Positions 2,939-39,546 of a DNA stretch of 39,546 nucleotides are shown here, one piece after another; within the stretch, counting starts at the first letter, position 1; the number at the start of each line of letters is the position of its first letter. Source of the DNA: a bacterium (lineage in GTDB: Bacteria; Patescibacteriota; Saccharimonadia; Saccharimonadales; SZUA-47). The notes under the pieces are model-generated. The model did no database searches. It was not told the DNA's origin and saw nothing but the letters and a program-made list of their open reading frames with translations. The position numbers were made by a program, and so were the translations under genes. Location: NCBI GenBank assembly GCA_030427365.1, contig JAUHWW010000007.1, forward strand, positions 1 through 39,546, written 5' to 3'.

Positions 2939-4228
2939 ATGCGAGTTTACTTTAGTGGAATAGGTGGGGCCGGTATTTCACCGCTAGCTTTGATTGCCCA
3001 TCAAGCGGGCTACGACGTAGCTGGATCTGATATGCAGGATAGTTCCTATGTTGCGAATTTACGCTCAAAAGGCATCCAGAATATTGTTATAGGACAATCG
3101 CGAGAAACAATTGCAGAGATCCACGAGCAACAACCGATTGACTGGTTGGTGCATTCCTCGGCAGTTCGAGAAGATAGCCCAGGCTACGCAGAAATAGCGT
3201 TTGCAAACGAAAACGGCATCAAGACAAGCAAACGCGATGAATTCATTAATAAACTGCTGCAAGACACTGGGCAAAAGATGATCGCTATTGCTGGCACGCA
3301 TGGCAAAACTACCACGACCGCCATGATGATATGGCTGTTTCGCGAGCTTGGTTTGCCACTTTCCTACTCACTCGGCGCGAAATTGTCATTTGGTGGCATC
3401 GGACAGTTTGATAAAGAAGCGACGTATTTTATCTACGAAGCCGATGAATACGACCGAAATTTTTTGAGTTTCTCGCCTGCTCTCAGCTTGATTACCGGTA
3501 TTGCTTATGATCACCCAGACATTTATCCAAATGAGGAAGACTACAATCAGGCATTTCGCGATTTCTTGGCGCAGTCTGACAGAGCCTACATCTGGGAGAA
3601 CGACGCTGACAAACTCGGCGTTACCACCACGGATAAAATTGGCGTGTTACGCAAAGAAGATTACGAAGGGTTTGCTGAAAGTCTTGTTGGCAGCGTGAAC
3701 CGTGAAAATGCGCGACTCGTCATGCAGGGCATGCAAAGTCTTGATGATAGTTTAGATATGACCAAACTCTCAGATATCATGGACCAATTCCCTGGTGTTT
3801 CGCGCCGCTTTGAGAAAATCGCTGAGAATATATACACCGATTACGCGCACACACCCGAGAAAATCATGGGCGCGATACAGCTAACACGCGAAATTTCCGA
3901 CAAAGTCGTTGTCGTATATGAAGGTTTGCACAACACGCGGCAGCACTTTATAAAAGAACAATTAGCCACTATGTTCGGCGGTGCCGAGCAGGTTATCGTT
4001 GTACCAAGCTACCGCGCCCGTGAAGATGAATCTCTCGAAGACCTCACGCCCGAAAAACTTTGCCACTTGATCAAAACGCCAGAAAACTGCCGGCCGGCCG
4101 AGCTGAACGACGAACTAAAGGATGCTCTCGCCGAGCTAAGCAAACAAAACCTCATTCTCTGTCTTAGCGCTGGCAGCGGCGGCAGCCTAGACGAATGGCT
4201 GAGAGCCAACTTTGTTGATAGTAATTAG
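2939..4228 (+). CDS. murC: Mur ligase, UDP-N-acetylmuramate--alanine ligase type (MurC/Mpl)
   Basis: A cytoplasmic ATP-dependent amide ligase of peptidoglycan synthesis or recycling, 429 residues. The N-terminal Rossmann domain opens with SGIGGAGISPLALI and ends its second strand in GSD, as in MurC and Mpl. The P-loop AGTHGKTTTTAMMIW lies near residue 117. The central domain has the metal/carbamate-region signature YDHPDIYP. The C-terminal domain begins at DYAHTPEKI, the Mur ligase DYAH motif. The N-terminus fits MurC, but Mpl, which recycles muropeptides, cannot be excluded because both share this architecture. No other mur gene is nearby. In an epibiont this enzyme could act on host-derived precursors (inference). 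Confidence 0.8.
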   Translation: MRVYFSGIGGAGISPLALIAHQAGYDVAGSDMQDSSYVANLRSKGIQNIVIGQSRETIAEIHEQQPIDWLVHSSAVREDSPGYAEIAFANENGIKTSKRDEFINKLLQDTGQKMIAIAGTHGKTTTTAMMIWLFRELGLPLSYSLGAKLSFGGIGQFDKEATYFIYEADEYDRNFLSFSPALSLITGIAYDHPDIYPNEEDYNQAFRDFLAQSDRAYIWENDADKLGVTTTDKIGVLRKEDYEGFAESLVGSVNRENARLVMQGMQSLDDSLDMTKLSDIMDQFPGVSRRFEKIAENIYTDYAHTPEKIMGAIQLTREISDKVVVVYEGLHNTRQHFIKEQLATMFGGAEQVIVVPSYRAREDESLEDLTPEKLCHLIKTPENCRPAELNDELKDALAELSKQNLILCLSAGSGGSLDEWLRANFVDSN

Positions 4229-15264: not shown

Positions 15265-15966
15265 TTAGAACATGTCTGGGTACTGAGCTTCAATGCCGCC
15301 TGCTAATGCATCAGCGATATCTTTCACCTGGTCGGCTGCTGCCGTCAGGGCAATGTATGTTCCTTCTAGATCACCCGAGTCGAGCGTATCTATGACCGCG
15401 AGAACTTTGTTCCTGTGATCAAGAAGCAGTGGCATCACGGCCTCTTTCGGCAGGTTTGGATTGGCGTTAGCAAAGAAGTTACTTGCTGCCTGACCGTAGC
15501 CGGCGAGGTCCTCTTTCGCCTGATCCATTGCCTGCTGATCATCATCACGCGCTCCTATCGTATAGTTTGCAAAGAACGTGATGTGCTGACGCCACAGATC
15601 AAGAAACTGACTTTCAGCGTCATCGCCGTAGACTGAACCAACGAGTGCGGCTACTTCTTTGGAATTTTCATCCAATGCGGCCTCTGCGGCCTCAAAATCT
15701 GGTGCCTCCAGATACGCGTTTCGCAGTGCAACGCCTGACAGATTGACGTGCTCCTGAAGTGCATTATTTAATCCGACGCGTAAACCAGCTGCTGCTGAAT
15801 CAACGCCCGAGTTCTCACTCGAACCGCTATCCGATTGCTGCGAGGTATTTGTATTCATGTCGTCATCGCTACCAGAATCTCCGATAACATAGCCGACCCC
15901 ACCACCCACTAGTAGTGCAACAACAGCAGTGATAAGTGCTGTCATGCCTGCGTGTGATTTTTCCAT
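15265..15966 (-). CDS. membrane-anchored helical exported protein
   Basis: A 233-residue protein. A hydrophobic, Gly-rich N-terminal anchor (about 8-29), an Asp/Ser/Asn-rich linker, then about 165 helical residues. The body has a repeated pattern typical of a helical-bundle secreted family I know only descriptively: LNNALQEHVNLSGVALRNAY, ALDENSKEVAALVGSVYG, FLDLWRQHITFFANYT and FFANANPNLPKEAV. Function unknown. AGGAG precedes the ATG by about 7 nt and TATAAT lies at 16012-16017. A MarR-type inverted repeat sits just upstream of this promoter, and the marR gene follows downstream, so MarR control is likely. Confidence 0.75.
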   Translation of the reverse strand: MEKSHAGMTALITAVVALLVGGGVGYVIGDSGSDDDMNTNTSQQSDSGSSENSGVDSAAAGLRVGLNNALQEHVNLSGVALRNAYLEAPDFEAAEAALDENSKEVAALVGSVYGDDAESQFLDLWRQHITFFANYTIGARDDDQQAMDQAKEDLAGYGQAASNFFANANPNLPKEAVMPLLLDHRNKVLAVIDTLDSGDLEGTYIALTAAADQVKDIADALAGGIEAQYPDMF

Positions 15967-16833: not shown

Positions 16834-16867
16834 TCACCCCTTCTGCGAGGAGGGGTGAATTTATTTT
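16834..16867 (+). terminator. intrinsic terminator of the FAS1 gene
   Basis: A 10-bp stem (16834-16843 with 16849-16858) around loop TGCGA, followed by TTTATTTT. Confidence 0.88.
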
Positions 16868-16872
16868 GTATT

Positions 16873-16902
16873 AAAAAGCCGACCCTTAGTTGGGTCGGCT
16901 TT
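16873..16902 (-). terminator. intrinsic terminator of the ncRNA-tRNA-small protein transcript
   Basis: An 11-bp stem (16875-16885 with 16892-16902) around a 6-nt loop. The U-run lies on the minus strand, so it ends transcription coming from the tRNA and the small protein gene. Confidence 0.85.
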
Positions 16903-16918
16903 GTTGAACTAGCTAGCT

Positions 16919-17068
16919 TCAAGCTAGGCTAGCGCACTCTTTGCACAATGACTTTCCGCCAGTGCCAGCACGCAGGTTTTCACGCTCAATATTGTTGCCT
17001 GTATTGCAATCAGTATTGTTGTGGTAAACCCACTGCTTGATAGAGTGCCAAGGTGAGCGTCTACCCAT
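16919..17068 (-). CDS. 49-residue Cys/His-rich small protein downstream of the tRNA
   Basis: It starts MGRRSPWHSIKQW. A compact metal-binding-like core follows: YHNNTDCNTGNNI, then GTGGKSLCKEC. One Cys, a CxxC pair and two His could make a zinc site. The TGNN...R.GTGGK.LC..C pattern looks conserved, but I cannot name a family; an HNH-like or zinc-ribbon fold is possible. The frame stays open upstream to an ATG at 17155 that uses the last A of the tRNA CCA (78 residues). That part forms hairpins and looks non-coding, so I prefer 17068, where only a weak GGGG precedes the ATG. It shares a transcript with the tRNA. Confidence 0.55.
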   Translation of the reverse strand: MGRRSPWHSIKQWVYHNNTDCNTGNNIERENLRAGTGGKSLCKECASLA

Positions 17069-17154
17069 GACTTGACCCCATTTAAATACTCTTACCAAGA
17101 GTTTAACGGAGAGTCGACCTACTCTCTCGTGAAGCATTACTATTAATGGCTTCA

Positions 17155-17232
17155 TGGGGTGACATACCGGATTCGAACCGGTGACCTTCTGGGATCCAGC
17201 CAGACGCTCTAACCAACTAAGCTAATGTCACC
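17155..17232 (-). tRNA. tRNA with G-1:C73 and anticodon GGA by position (anomalous)
   Basis: A complete cloverleaf on the minus strand. The acceptor is GTGACAT/ATGTCAC (17231-17225 with 17165-17159). The D-stem is GCTT/GAGC, the anticodon stem TCTGG/CCAGA, the variable loop AGGTC, and the T-arm ACCGG-TTCGAAT-CCGGT. Discriminator C73 and an encoded CCA (17157-17155) follow. G at 17232 can pair with C73, the hallmark of bacterial tRNA-His. The anticodon loop is CTGGATC, giving anticodon GGA (17197-17195), a serine anticodon. But the variable loop is short, unlike tRNA-Ser, and position 37 is U, whereas a purine is usual. It is either a divergent tRNA with unusual decoding or a tRNA used outside translation. 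Confidence 0.75.
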
Positions 17233-17236
17233 ATAT

Positions 17237-17418
17237 ATTGGGAAATAAAATAGACCCAATGGAGCGGTTATGAAAGGGCAACTACAAAGGTTTGTTGTTT
17301 ACACGCCTGGAGAGCGTGGACAATAAGCCCTTTGCATACCCGCACCATCGAGTCTATGACTCAAACACCTGATACTCCTTTGTAGTTTTTGTCTCTGCTT
17401 TTAAAGTACTTCCCCAGT
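17237..17418 (-). ncRNA. structured RNA with a predicted pseudoknot upstream of the tRNA
   Basis: The predicted start is about 17418, seven nt after a consensus -10. Helix A pairs 17386-17377 with 17290-17281 (10 bp, perfect). Helix B pairs 17346-17327 with 17279-17261 (about 17-18 bp with mismatches and one bulge). The order A-B-A'-B' makes them a pseudoknot or two mutually exclusive folds. Small hairpins fill the gaps: 17362-17350 (GAGUC/GACUC) and 17318-17302 (CACGC/GCGUG). A hairpin at 17260-17237 separates it from the tRNA. I could not match it to SRP RNA, tmRNA, RNase P RNA or a riboswitch class. It may be processed from the tRNA by RNase P. Confidence 0.55.
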
Positions 17419-17424
17419 GCCCTT

Positions 17425-17454
17425 ATTATATTGAAAAAAATGAAATATTGTCAA
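17425..17454 (-). promoter_or_regulatory. near-consensus sigma70-type promoter for the ncRNA-tRNA transcript
   Basis: TTGACA (17454-17449) and TATAAT (17430-17425) with an 18-nt spacer. It is the best promoter in the window, typical of stable RNA genes. Confidence 0.8.
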
Positions 17455-17464
17455 ATGCTGCGTA

Positions 17465-17560
17465 AAAGTAAAAAGCCTCCACAGATGTGAAGGCGTTTTA
17501 CTTGGATCCCAGAAGGGTTTTAAGCCGTAAAAACGGCTATTGCTATCCCTCACCAATAGA
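17465..17560 (-). ncRNA. small terminated RNA with 14-nt complementarity to the tRNA anticodon arm
   Basis: A predicted RNA of about 95 nt. It starts about 7 nt after a TATTAT box and ends at the hairpin 17494-17475 followed by UUUUU. It contains a small hairpin (AGCCG/CGGCU near 17522-17538) and an A-rich single-stranded stretch. In this stretch, 17516-17503 reads CCTTCTGGGATCCA, the exact complement of tRNA positions U33 to the variable loop (17198-17185). No function is known. A 64-residue frame crossing this region is probably fortuitous. Confidence 0.5.
17470..17494 (-). terminator. terminator of the small antisense RNA
   Basis: GCCUUCACA and UGUGGAGGC close over a tiny loop and are followed by UUUUU on the minus strand. 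It separates the small RNA from the next promoter. Confidence 0.8.
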
Positions 17561-17566
17561 GAAATA

Positions 17567-17595
17567 ATAATAGCAGTTCTTTTGCTTGTCGTCAA
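17567..17595 (-). promoter_or_regulatory. sigma70-type promoter of the small antisense RNA
   Basis: TTGACG (17595-17590) and TATTAT (17572-17567) with a 17-nt spacer on the minus strand. Confidence 0.65.
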
Positions 17596-17630
17596 TATTA
17601 TTTTAAAGTGCTCGTGTTTTTGTTTTTGTT

Positions 17631-17656
17631 AAAAAAATCCGAACCTAAATCCGGAT
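17631..17656 (-). terminator. intrinsic terminator downstream of aspS
   Basis: A 7-bp stem (AUCCGGA/UUCGGAU, one G-U pair) is followed by seven U on the minus strand. A TATAAT at 17718-17713 could start a separate RNA of about 75 nt ending here; its -35 is poor. I see nothing else in 17657-17756. Confidence 0.75.
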
Positions 17657-17756
17657 GACCTACTTACCGACTGGTTACGTTTGGCATTGAACAGTACCCT
17701 TTTATTGATTTCATTATACATGACTGTCAACTATTTATGACAAAGTATGTGTAGAG

Positions 17757-19502
17757 CTAGTTATCCACTACTCTTATGCTTAATTCATCGAGTAGTTTTT
17801 CTTCGACTCGACTTGGGGAGCCGGTCATGACGTCGACACCTGAGCCGTTTTTCGGAAAAGCGATGACTTCGCGAATGTTATCTTCGCTCATCAGCTCCAT
17901 AAACATGCGGTCGATACCGAACGCGCAACCTGCATGCGGCGGTGCACCATATTTGAATGCACCGATCATGGCGCCAAACTTTTCGTTCACGTAAGCTTCG
18001 TCGTAGCCGAGCACACTAAAGGCCTTGTACATGACTTCTGGGCGGTGGTTTCGGACGCTACCCGAGCAAATTTCGTAGCCGTTCATCACCATGTCGTACT
18101 GATCCGCGACAATGTTTTCTTTGTCTTCTCTATCAAACGCTTCTGCGCCGCCTTTTGGCATTGAGAATGGGTTGTGACCAAAGTCAAGCTTGCCATCTTC
18201 TTCTTCGTAAAAAGGAAAGTCGACAATCCAGGCCAGTGCAACAACCTCAGGATCTTTGAGCTCAAGCACGTCACCAAAATGACTACGCAAATCACCAAGC
18301 ACTTTGTTGACGACTTTTCGCTCGTCGCTGCCAAAGAAAATCGTATCACCGTCTTTCGCCGCTGTTTTTTCGAGGATTTTTGCGAGGTCTTCATCACTGA
18401 AAAACTTTGCAATCGCCCCGCCGGCTTTACCGCCTTCTACTGTCATATATGGCAGACCACCGGCGCCGGATTTTTTGGCGCGTTCGGTGAGTTTATCAAT
18501 TTCTGAGCGGCTAAATGATTTACTTACGGCAATTGCTTTTACAGCGCCTCCCTTTTCTATCGCGCCGGAAAACACCCCAAAACCGCAGTTTTTTAGCTCA
18601 TCAGTAAGGTCGACGAGCTCCATCTCGTAGCGTAGATCTGGTTTGTCAGATCCAAAACGATCCATTGCTTCTTCGTACGGAATGCGTGGCACGTCGTCGA
18701 ACAACAATTTCTTGCCAGCAAAATCGGTCACGAGTGACTTTATGAGTGGCTCTGTCATTGAGCGAACGATTTCACCATCCTCAACAAACGACATTTCTAA
18801 GTCGAGCTGGTAGAACTCGCCATACAAACGATCGGCCCGAGGATCCTCGTCGCGGAAACACGTCGCCATCTGGTAATACCGTGGTACACCGCCAACCATC
18901 AACAGTTGCTTAAATTGCTGCGGTGCTTGCGGCAGCGCGTAAAACTGACCTGGGTGCAACCGTGAAGGCACCAGGAAGTCACGCGCTCCTTCTGGAGACG
19001 AGTTCGCCAAAATTGGTGTCGTCACTTCGGTAAATTCATTTTCTTCCATGAATGCGCGCATCATCGAAAAGTATTCGGCACGCTTTTTCAGCATGTGCTG
19101 CATCTTATCGCGCCTAAGATCGAGATAGCGATATTTCAGGCGATGTTCCTCTGATATGTTTTGATCTGAGTTCACCTGTATCGGCAAAGCTTCTGATGTG
19201 TTGAGCACGCGAATTGACTCGACCATAATTTCGACATCACCAGTCGGAATGTTTGGATTTTTAAGCTCTGCTGCTCGCTCAGCGACACTGCCGGTCGCCT
19301 CAATGACATACTCATCACGCAATCCTTCTGCCAGCGTGAAGCTGTCAGAATCAGCATCAATCGTGAGCTGCACAATTCCTTTATGATCACGCAGATCAAT
19401 AAAAATCAGGCCGCCATGATCGCGGCGTGAGTTCACCCACCCTTGCACGAGTACTTTTTCGCCTTTTTGTTTTGTCGTTTCAATAGATACTGTTCGTTTC
19501 AT
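17757..19502 (-). CDS. aspS: aspartyl-tRNA synthetase, bacterial type
   Basis: A class II aminoacyl-tRNA synthetase charging tRNA-Asp, 581 residues. The N-terminal OB anticodon domain reads VQGWVNSRRDHGGLIFIDLRDHKG. The flipping-loop region SPEGARDFLVPSR and PQAPQQFKQLLMVGG follow. Class II motif 2 is YQMATCFRDEDPRADR and motif 3 ends GIDRMFMELMSE. The bacterial GAD insertion lies between. Whether it also serves tRNA-Asn cannot be told. I prefer the ATG at 19502, preceded by GGGGA, over 19514, which has no ribosome site. The long leader at 19515-19620 can fold into an extended hairpin. Confidence 0.96.
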   Translation of the reverse strand: MKRTVSIETTKQKGEKVLVQGWVNSRRDHGGLIFIDLRDHKGIVQLTIDADSDSFTLAEGLRDEYVIEATGSVAERAAELKNPNIPTGDVEIMVESIRVLNTSEALPIQVNSDQNISEEHRLKYRYLDLRRDKMQHMLKKRAEYFSMMRAFMEENEFTEVTTPILANSSPEGARDFLVPSRLHPGQFYALPQAPQQFKQLLMVGGVPRYYQMATCFRDEDPRADRLYGEFYQLDLEMSFVEDGEIVRSMTEPLIKSLVTDFAGKKLLFDDVPRIPYEEAMDRFGSDKPDLRYEMELVDLTDELKNCGFGVFSGAIEKGGAVKAIAVSKSFSRSEIDKLTERAKKSGAGGLPYMTVEGGKAGGAIAKFFSDEDLAKILEKTAAKDGDTIFFGSDERKVVNKVLGDLRSHFGDVLELKDPEVVALAWIVDFPFYEEEDGKLDFGHNPFSMPKGGAEAFDREDKENIVADQYDMVMNGYEICSGSVRNHRPEVMYKAFSVLGYDEAYVNEKFGAMIGAFKYGAPPHAGCAFGIDRMFMELMSEDNIREVIAFPKNGSGVDVMTGSPSRVEEKLLDELSIRVVDN

Positions 19503-26039: not shown

Positions 26040-26145
26040 CTTCTTTTCCTGCTCGGGAGACCGCTATTTCAGTTAGCGGGTGAACCAGCTCGGACTTTTA
26101 CCGTTGCGGCACAGCGCAGGAATTACACCTGACTTCCGGTTCGTT
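26040..26145 (-). ncRNA. cobalamin-riboswitch-like aptamer
   Basis: The core reads GCUGUGCCGCAACGGUAA (minus strand, about 26116-26099), very close to the B12-box consensus GCUGxCCCGCAACxGUAA. It is preceded by GGAA and a P3-like hairpin (26131-26117, with GGUG at the expected place) and followed by AGUCCGA. A P2-like helix pairs GAACC (26142-26138) with GGUUC (26086-26082). A 3' hairpin (26079-26061) could be the L13-type element. GCAGGAA (26052-26046) is complementary to the P3 strand 26122-26116, offering a switch. The GAAUACC consensus after AGUC is changed, so a variant ligand is possible. Confidence 0.6.
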
Positions 26146-26160
26146 TTTGTTTATTAACAC

Positions 26161-39472: not shown

Positions 39473-39518
39473 TGGCTCCGGAGTGAGAAAGTTCTGTGAA
39501 CTTTTGCAAGGGAGCCCG
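39473..39518. other. nested hairpin near the right edge
   Basis: An outer GGCTCC/GGAGCC pair encloses AAAGTTC-TGT-GAACTTT (7 bp). It could be an RNA element or terminator of a gene outside the window. No coding frame is visible in 39434-39546. Confidence 0.35.
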
Positions 39519-39546
39519 CTCTTGAAAACTAGTTTTTCATAGATGC

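Follow-up and report, generated by a model that had tools for sequence, protein, structure and literature searches.

Our data suggest that a predicted small RNA may silence an adjacent, deviant tRNA through antisense pairing, a tentative reading to which we assign a probability of roughly 0.37. Both genes lie within a 39,546-nt stretch of a Saccharimonadales genome, referred to here as the window. We propose that this species-specific locus comprises two RNA genes. The first would encode a short RNA that has a promoter and a terminator to itself, while the second would be a unit of leader, tRNA, and small protein, in which the tRNA combines a histidine-type acceptor end with the serine anticodon GGA. 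If both genes are transcribed, the small RNA would pair by a 14-nt stretch with the tRNA or with its unfolded precursor, beginning at the open anticodon loop. The paired tRNA would then be barred from decoding, with a possible effect on translation, and perhaps also from charging. If the pairing works, the locus would provide a bacterial antisense RNA aimed at a tRNA anticodon as well as a natural tRNA whose acceptor end and anticodon disagree, and either of these, if true, would offer a handle on deliberate mistranslation. If the pairing does not work, antisense matches to tRNAs still need a lineage-specific null; tRNA fragments in either orientation pile up by tRNA genes of this lineage. Our literature search found no description of a small RNA pairing with the anticodon arm of a bacterial tRNA.

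Read along the minus strand, the order is aspS (gene end 17757), a terminator-like hairpin (17656-17637), the small RNA unit, a second promoter, the leader, the tRNA, and a gene for a 49-aa protein (Table 1). As judged from the sequence, the promoters, the complementarity, and the deviant anticodon loop are all present. The small RNA has a promoter and a terminator of its own, as an antisense small RNA should, both recognized by consensus. The surrounding region (17430-17600) has a fold z of -5.86, and none of 200 shuffles was equally stable. Promoter, terminator, and a fold z of about -5.9 make plausible the minus-strand small RNA that the earlier note had proposed. Good promoters for both RNAs, together with a terminator for the small RNA, argue for antisense silencing. 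The leader is also predicted to be structured (17235-17425, fold z -4.45, 0/200 shuffles equally stable), and a search of 196 other genomes found nothing matching it at E <= 0.001. We observed two competing folds in the leader (17232-17420, minus strand): one is a long hairpin (UAGACUCGAUGG.../CCAUUGGGUCUA), the other an 11-bp pairing without mismatch (AACTACAAAGG/CCTTTGTAGTT), which was identified by eye. Only tRNA exceeded its gathering score in the Rfam search of the locus, with no other family doing so, and we therefore rejected a known RNA family for the locus as a whole. A T-box riboswitch was rejected as well: Rfam gave 10 matches up to E = 5 for 16850-17760, and the T-box model was not one of them.

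Table 1. Features of the small RNA and tRNA locus, in window coordinates.
Feature	Position	Strand	Basis
Small RNA promoter, sigma-70-like, TTGACG-17-TATTAT	17567..17595	-	10/12 consensus bases; TG before second hexamer
Predicted small RNA, ~90 nt, ends inferred	17470..17562	-	Between promoter and terminator; fold; no match spanning the stretch elsewhere
14-nt antisense stretch of the predicted small RNA	17503..17516	-	Exact reverse complement of tRNA U33-G46; unique in genome
Intrinsic terminator of the small RNA	17475..17494	-	8-pair stem, 4-nt loop, TTTTTACTTT tail
Promoter ahead of leader and tRNA, consensus TTGACA-18-TATAAT	17425..17454	-	12/12 consensus bases
Structured leader ahead of the tRNA, ~190 nt	17232..17420	-	Fold; 196 other genomes searched, no relative
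Additional class I tRNA of deviant type, anticodon GGA, CCA encoded; G-1 (17232) paired with C73	17155..17231	-	ARAGORN, Rfam
Target stretch in the tRNA, U33 to G46	17185..17198	-	Exact match; 10/14 bases common to His relatives, 10/14 to Ala relative
Gene for a 49-aa small protein, behind the tRNA	16919..17068	-	Relatives in viral contigs and one genome of the order
Likely terminator after the 49-aa gene	16877..16902	-	By eye: GCCGACCC-AACTAA-GGGTCGGC-TTTTT; absent from terminator scan

We found that the 14-nt complementarity between the small RNA and the tRNA anticodon arm is exact, as the earlier note had claimed: plus-strand positions 17503-17516 read TGGATCCCAGAAGG, the same letters as minus-strand tRNA bases 17198-17185. 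By standard numbering the matched bases are U33 to G46, which bears out the claim that the stretch is antisense to the anticodon, the 3' anticodon stem, and part of the variable loop. No other match of at least 11 nt to the deviant tRNA exists on either strand of the 39.5-kb window. Across the 935,495-base genome, the 16-mer around the stretch recovers itself, the tRNA (with two mismatches, at both ends), and one unrelated site with three mismatches. When the 869-nt intergenic block was dinucleotide-shuffled 20,000 times, five shuffles held a match of at least 14 nt to the tRNA in either orientation, at least four of them antisense. A stretch that is perfect, unique in the genome, and this rare in shuffles argues for antisense silencing. 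The earlier estimate of chance, well under 1 in 1000, stands for a single locus (5/20,000) but not after multiplication over 40 tRNA genes (ARAGORN calls in the fetched loci of the window's own genome, G000), which raises it to approximately 1%. Over some 40 tRNA genes, a 14-nt match by chance is uncommon, but it is not impossible.

Coincidence is a reading that we regard as quite possible, if short of probable, and only a little less likely than silencing: the small RNA, or merely two hairpins and a terminator, would share 14 nt with the tRNA by chance and have another role or none. A reader of a whole window compares a great deal, which adds to the 1% figure, and matches in either orientation look meaningful because the anticodon arm forms an inverted repeat of its own. 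The absence of visible conservation for the small RNA among 391 other genomes of the order points the same way. Coincidence accounts less well for the match being the only one of its kind in the window, and for the position of the stretch, which is 272 nt away from its target and enclosed by a promoter and a terminator. We also considered, and rejected, an invertible switch formed by the pair of inverted 14-mers, since inversion would not rebuild a tRNA half (by eye).

We asked whether the target is a tRNA of ordinary identity. It scored 65.6 bits against the Rfam tRNA model, and ARAGORN labels it tRNA-Ser from its serine-codon anticodon, GGA. The long variable arm and G73 of tRNA-Ser are both lacking (the variable loop is 5 nt, and base 73 is C). 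The G-1:C73 pair of tRNA-His is present and all eight acceptor pairs are formed, while the anticodon is GGA and not GUG. The genome already encodes a class-II tRNA-Ser(GGA) (locus L082) and a normal tRNA-His(GUG) (locus L072). In bacteria, G-1:C73 is the main histidine signal and suffices to shift histidine acceptance onto a tRNA-Ala minihelix, with a contribution from the anticodon, whereas serine identity comes primarily from the variable arm, with G73, according to the available text of PMC9976931. Because G-1:C73 is present and the serine arm and G73 are absent, histidine would be a likelier amino acid than serine for the deviant tRNA, should it be charged at all.

When 392 genomes of the order were searched for this tRNA, 127 of them, counting the window's own, had matches at E <= 1e-7, and the best 29 fetched related loci of these 127 genomes comprised 21 tRNA-His(GUG) and 8 tRNA-Ala(GGC). 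Base by base, the deviant tRNA is identical to two tRNA-His(GUG) of relatives at 64/78 positions and to one tRNA-Ala(GGC) at 63/78. It shares the G-1:C73 end with the former and, in the 5' half of its anticodon arm, TCTGGCTGG with the latter. The deviant tRNA differs from both in its solitary position outside any tRNA cluster, in the 190-nt leader ahead of it, and in its anticodon loop, which is new: CTGGATC (CUGGAUC), with anticodon GGA, compared to TTGTGGT in tRNA-His and CTGGCAG in tRNA-Ala. A pyrimidine at position 37 (U37) occurs in this tRNA alone among the 179 distinct tRNAs in fetched loci. The loop has changed more than the tRNA body. Two acceptor pairs are changed on both sides relative to tRNA-His with pairing preserved; with its folding kept in this way, the tRNA does not resemble a decayed pseudogene, which argues for antisense silencing. 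So does the placement of the antisense stretch, which covers exactly the abnormal part of the tRNA (loop CTGGATC, U37). On the other side, ordinary tRNAs of the lineage have 10 of the 14 target bases as well, which counts against silencing. A phage origin of the tRNA was rejected: a phage tRNA-His is 77% identical, but tRNAs of the order are closer, and no tRNA was found near the relatives of the 49-aa protein in five viral contigs.

We calculated whether the predicted pairing is energetically favorable. The 14-mer duplex has a predicted energy of -26.2 kcal/mol. Opening the whole tRNA target would cost 7.2 kcal/mol and opening six loop bases only 0.1. The predicted cofold of small RNA and tRNA gains -10.2 kcal/mol, compared to -1.4 +/- 1.7 kcal/mol for shuffled small RNAs, none of 300 being as good. 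That the predicted pairing beats all 300 shuffled small RNAs, with a loop that opens for 0.1 kcal/mol, argues for silencing of the tRNA. Against this, pairing of the tRNA with itself scores as well (-10.5 versus -10.2 kcal/mol; GGATCC is a palindrome), and raw duplex energy is unspecific, at -54.2 for the deviant tRNA compared to -53.2 for the next of 64 tRNAs, with 6/2,000 shuffles equally low. The earlier note had reasoned that A-rich flanks between two hairpins leave the stretch accessible. The sequence context is as described, while the accessibility holds only in part, several of the 14 bases being paired. In the predicted ensemble of the small RNA, the unpaired probability is 0.01 for CC, 0.74-0.82 for UUCU, 0.08-0.12 for GGG, 0.32-0.40 for AUCC, and 0.92 for the last A, and opening the stretch would cost 5.6 kcal/mol. 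A stretch that is partly folded in the small RNA, combined with the 7.2 kcal/mol for the whole tRNA target, weighs against antisense silencing.

We next consider conservation. A 241-nt query containing the small RNA gave no match across the stretch in any of 98 other genomes; in 41 of the 98, other parts of the query were matched at E <= 0.1, the best of these matches being promoter-like. Promoters resembling that of the small RNA do exist in other genomes of the order, and we rejected this similarity as homology of the small RNA because other sequences stand downstream of the matches. A 93-nt query was run against 391 other genomes of the order; none had a match spanning the stretch, and 3 had 18- to 25-nt matches (E 0.003-0.009) that fail to span it. 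The deviant anticodon arm, allowing at most one mismatch, was found in 2/391 other genomes, at loci without a tRNA, and a pattern for a tRNA carrying this arm retrieved nothing from viral_contigs or genome_contigs. Among the 29 related tRNA-His and tRNA-Ala loci the anticodon arm varies, with no small RNA there for comparison, and none has at least 10 nt antisense to its anticodon arm in the fetched flanks. These loci thus neither mirror changes in the tRNA nor strictly amount to the refutation that the earlier note had set out. What counts against the proposed silencing is that our searches found no second genome with the small RNA-tRNA pair in which selection on the pairing could be seen.

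To place the match in the context of its lineage, each tRNA was compared with its own flanks in two near genomes and six others (124 tRNAs, 8 genomes); the six-genome part contributed 48 tRNAs from 30 fetched loci picked by best tRNA score. Sense copies of at least 14 nt were found within 400 nt of 29/124 tRNA genes. Antisense matches, the window's included, reached at least 13 nt at 6/124 and at least 14 nt at 4/124, while none of 2,480 shuffled flanks reached 13 nt. The null model behind the earlier estimate of chance was, by this comparison, too simple. Pieces of tRNA are plainly being scattered around tRNA genes in this lineage, and the 14-nt match therefore weighs less as evidence of function. 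The other five antisense matches (13-15 nt, perfect; L030, L127, L026, L207, L208) lie 11-55 nt downstream of their tRNAs and cover tRNA positions 40-61, mostly the T arm.

Since tRNA fragments in both orientations recur near tRNA genes of the lineage, a functionless copy is a live rival. The stretch would then derive from the tRNA arm by inverted copying and trimming, or would have templated the loop change, and would do nothing. Consistent with copying after the change, the bases within the stretch that set this tRNA apart from its relatives are matched too. We consider such a relic rather unlikely, though not much less likely than coincidence. The window's match is the only one of the six that is upstream of its tRNA and on the anticodon loop, and by eye no similarity remains past 14 nt, while sense copies reach 28 nt and imperfect ones 64 nt. 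The abrupt stop at 14 nt also speaks against antisense silencing.

Trans-encoded antitoxin small RNAs of type I toxin-antitoxin systems include IstR-1/TisB, OhsC/ShoB, RalA/RalR, and OrzO/ZorO. Like these, the small RNA proposed here has its own promoter, adjoins its target gene, and has short perfect complementarity to it. The complement here is to a tRNA and theirs is to an mRNA leader, and here the toxin is only a candidate. An RNA-only toxin-antitoxin pair, in which a tRNA charged with histidine through G-1:C73 would misread serine UCU/UCC codons and be checked by an antisense RNA covering its anticodon, strikes us as a long shot.

The direction of control could also be reversed, with a tRNA-like RNA of remodelled loop acting as a decoy that titrates the small RNA from other targets, as the stronger change in the loop than in the body might suggest. 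There is a precedent in Escherichia coli, where a tRNA transcript, 3'ETS-leuZ, can titrate the small RNA RyhB by base pairing; in the available text of PMC6191717, a spacer excised from the tRNA precursor does the pairing and not the tRNA itself, whereas here the anticodon arm of the mature tRNA would do so. This difference, and the absence from the genome of any other site within two mismatches of the 16-mer, hence of an obvious target to spare, make a sponge very improbable in our view. Silencing of the tRNA by the small RNA, our preferred reading, also resembles the CreT RNA toxins in that a small RNA would remove a tRNA from use. As described in the available text of PMC8501985, CreT toxins sequester a rare tRNA via the codons of a mini-ORF, under the control of a CRISPR-like guide; here the means would be direct antisense pairing.

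We also examined the origin of the block and the gene behind the tRNA. In genome G005, a relative of the window's 233-aa gene (15265-15966) directly follows aspS and the block is missing, and in genome G001 another gene follows aspS (both by eye), so the block is an addition or a local replacement. Its absence between aspS and the 233-aa gene relative in G005, with the other gene in G001, supports antisense silencing. The 49-aa protein is real, judging by its relatives, which share 73-77% identity in five viral contigs and 50% in one other genome of the order. No tRNA lies near it in the five viral loci or at the locus of the 50% relative, so its position directly behind a tRNA is seen only here; a weaker relative (30%) has a tRNA-Leu approximately 1.3 kb away. 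The protein matched no Pfam or PHROGs family, and it has conserved H and C residues (VYHNN..C..GNNIE...GTGGK.LC..C).

Several further observations were made in the window and across the order. A structured element of approximately 95 nt, termed R1 (GTGAG-hairpin-CGCAAGG...AAACTTGTTT...CGGGGTCGC-hairpin), is found within incomplete tRNA gene copies that lie in direct orientation next to an intact tRNA; the copies are broken at the D/anticodon-arm junction, in the anticodon loop, or in the T loop (e.g., L122, around 3100-3540; L155, 1300-1636; L178, 1300-1640; L184; L030; L130). Eleven R1 copies have three hairpins in common, with compensatory changes at 17/22 predicted pairs. Of 60 genomes of the order, counting the window's own, 38 had matches to the R1 model, with up to 20 in a single genome, and a tRNA gene was present at 27 of the 30 best fetched R1 loci. 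Rfam matched only tRNAs in 12 tRNA loci, most of which carry R1-bearing copies. The exact R1 pattern occurs in 14 stretches of genome_contigs, 11 of them titled Saccharibacteria, Saccharimonadia, or Saccharimonadales and the others Patescibacteria, Parcubacteria, and uncultured bacterium (one each), and in none of viral_contigs. As to the nature of R1, a tRNA-targeting mobile element, an intron-like RNA, and recombination sites are all candidates. Perhaps the nearest parallel is the rtT repeats behind E. coli tyrT, which copy the 3' end of the tRNA; our literature search found no description of tRNA-linked repeats in Saccharibacteria. The only R1 match in the window is at 39482-39546, with none at the small RNA-tRNA locus. 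A second insert type, unlike R1 (GTTCGCTA...TATTCCCG), occurs in 3' tRNA copies at L014, L136, L141, and L128, where it precedes a copy of tRNA positions ~57-76. In the window's own genome, tRNA-Asn(GUU) was not called among the fetched tRNA loci, possibly owing to a contig gap; a sister genome has one (L020). Finally, the window contains an AdoCbl-II (cobalamin) riboswitch (26081-26153, minus strand; 41 bits against a cut-off of 36.5) approximately 100 nt before a 503-aa gene (25984-24473), which is unexpected in so reduced a genome.
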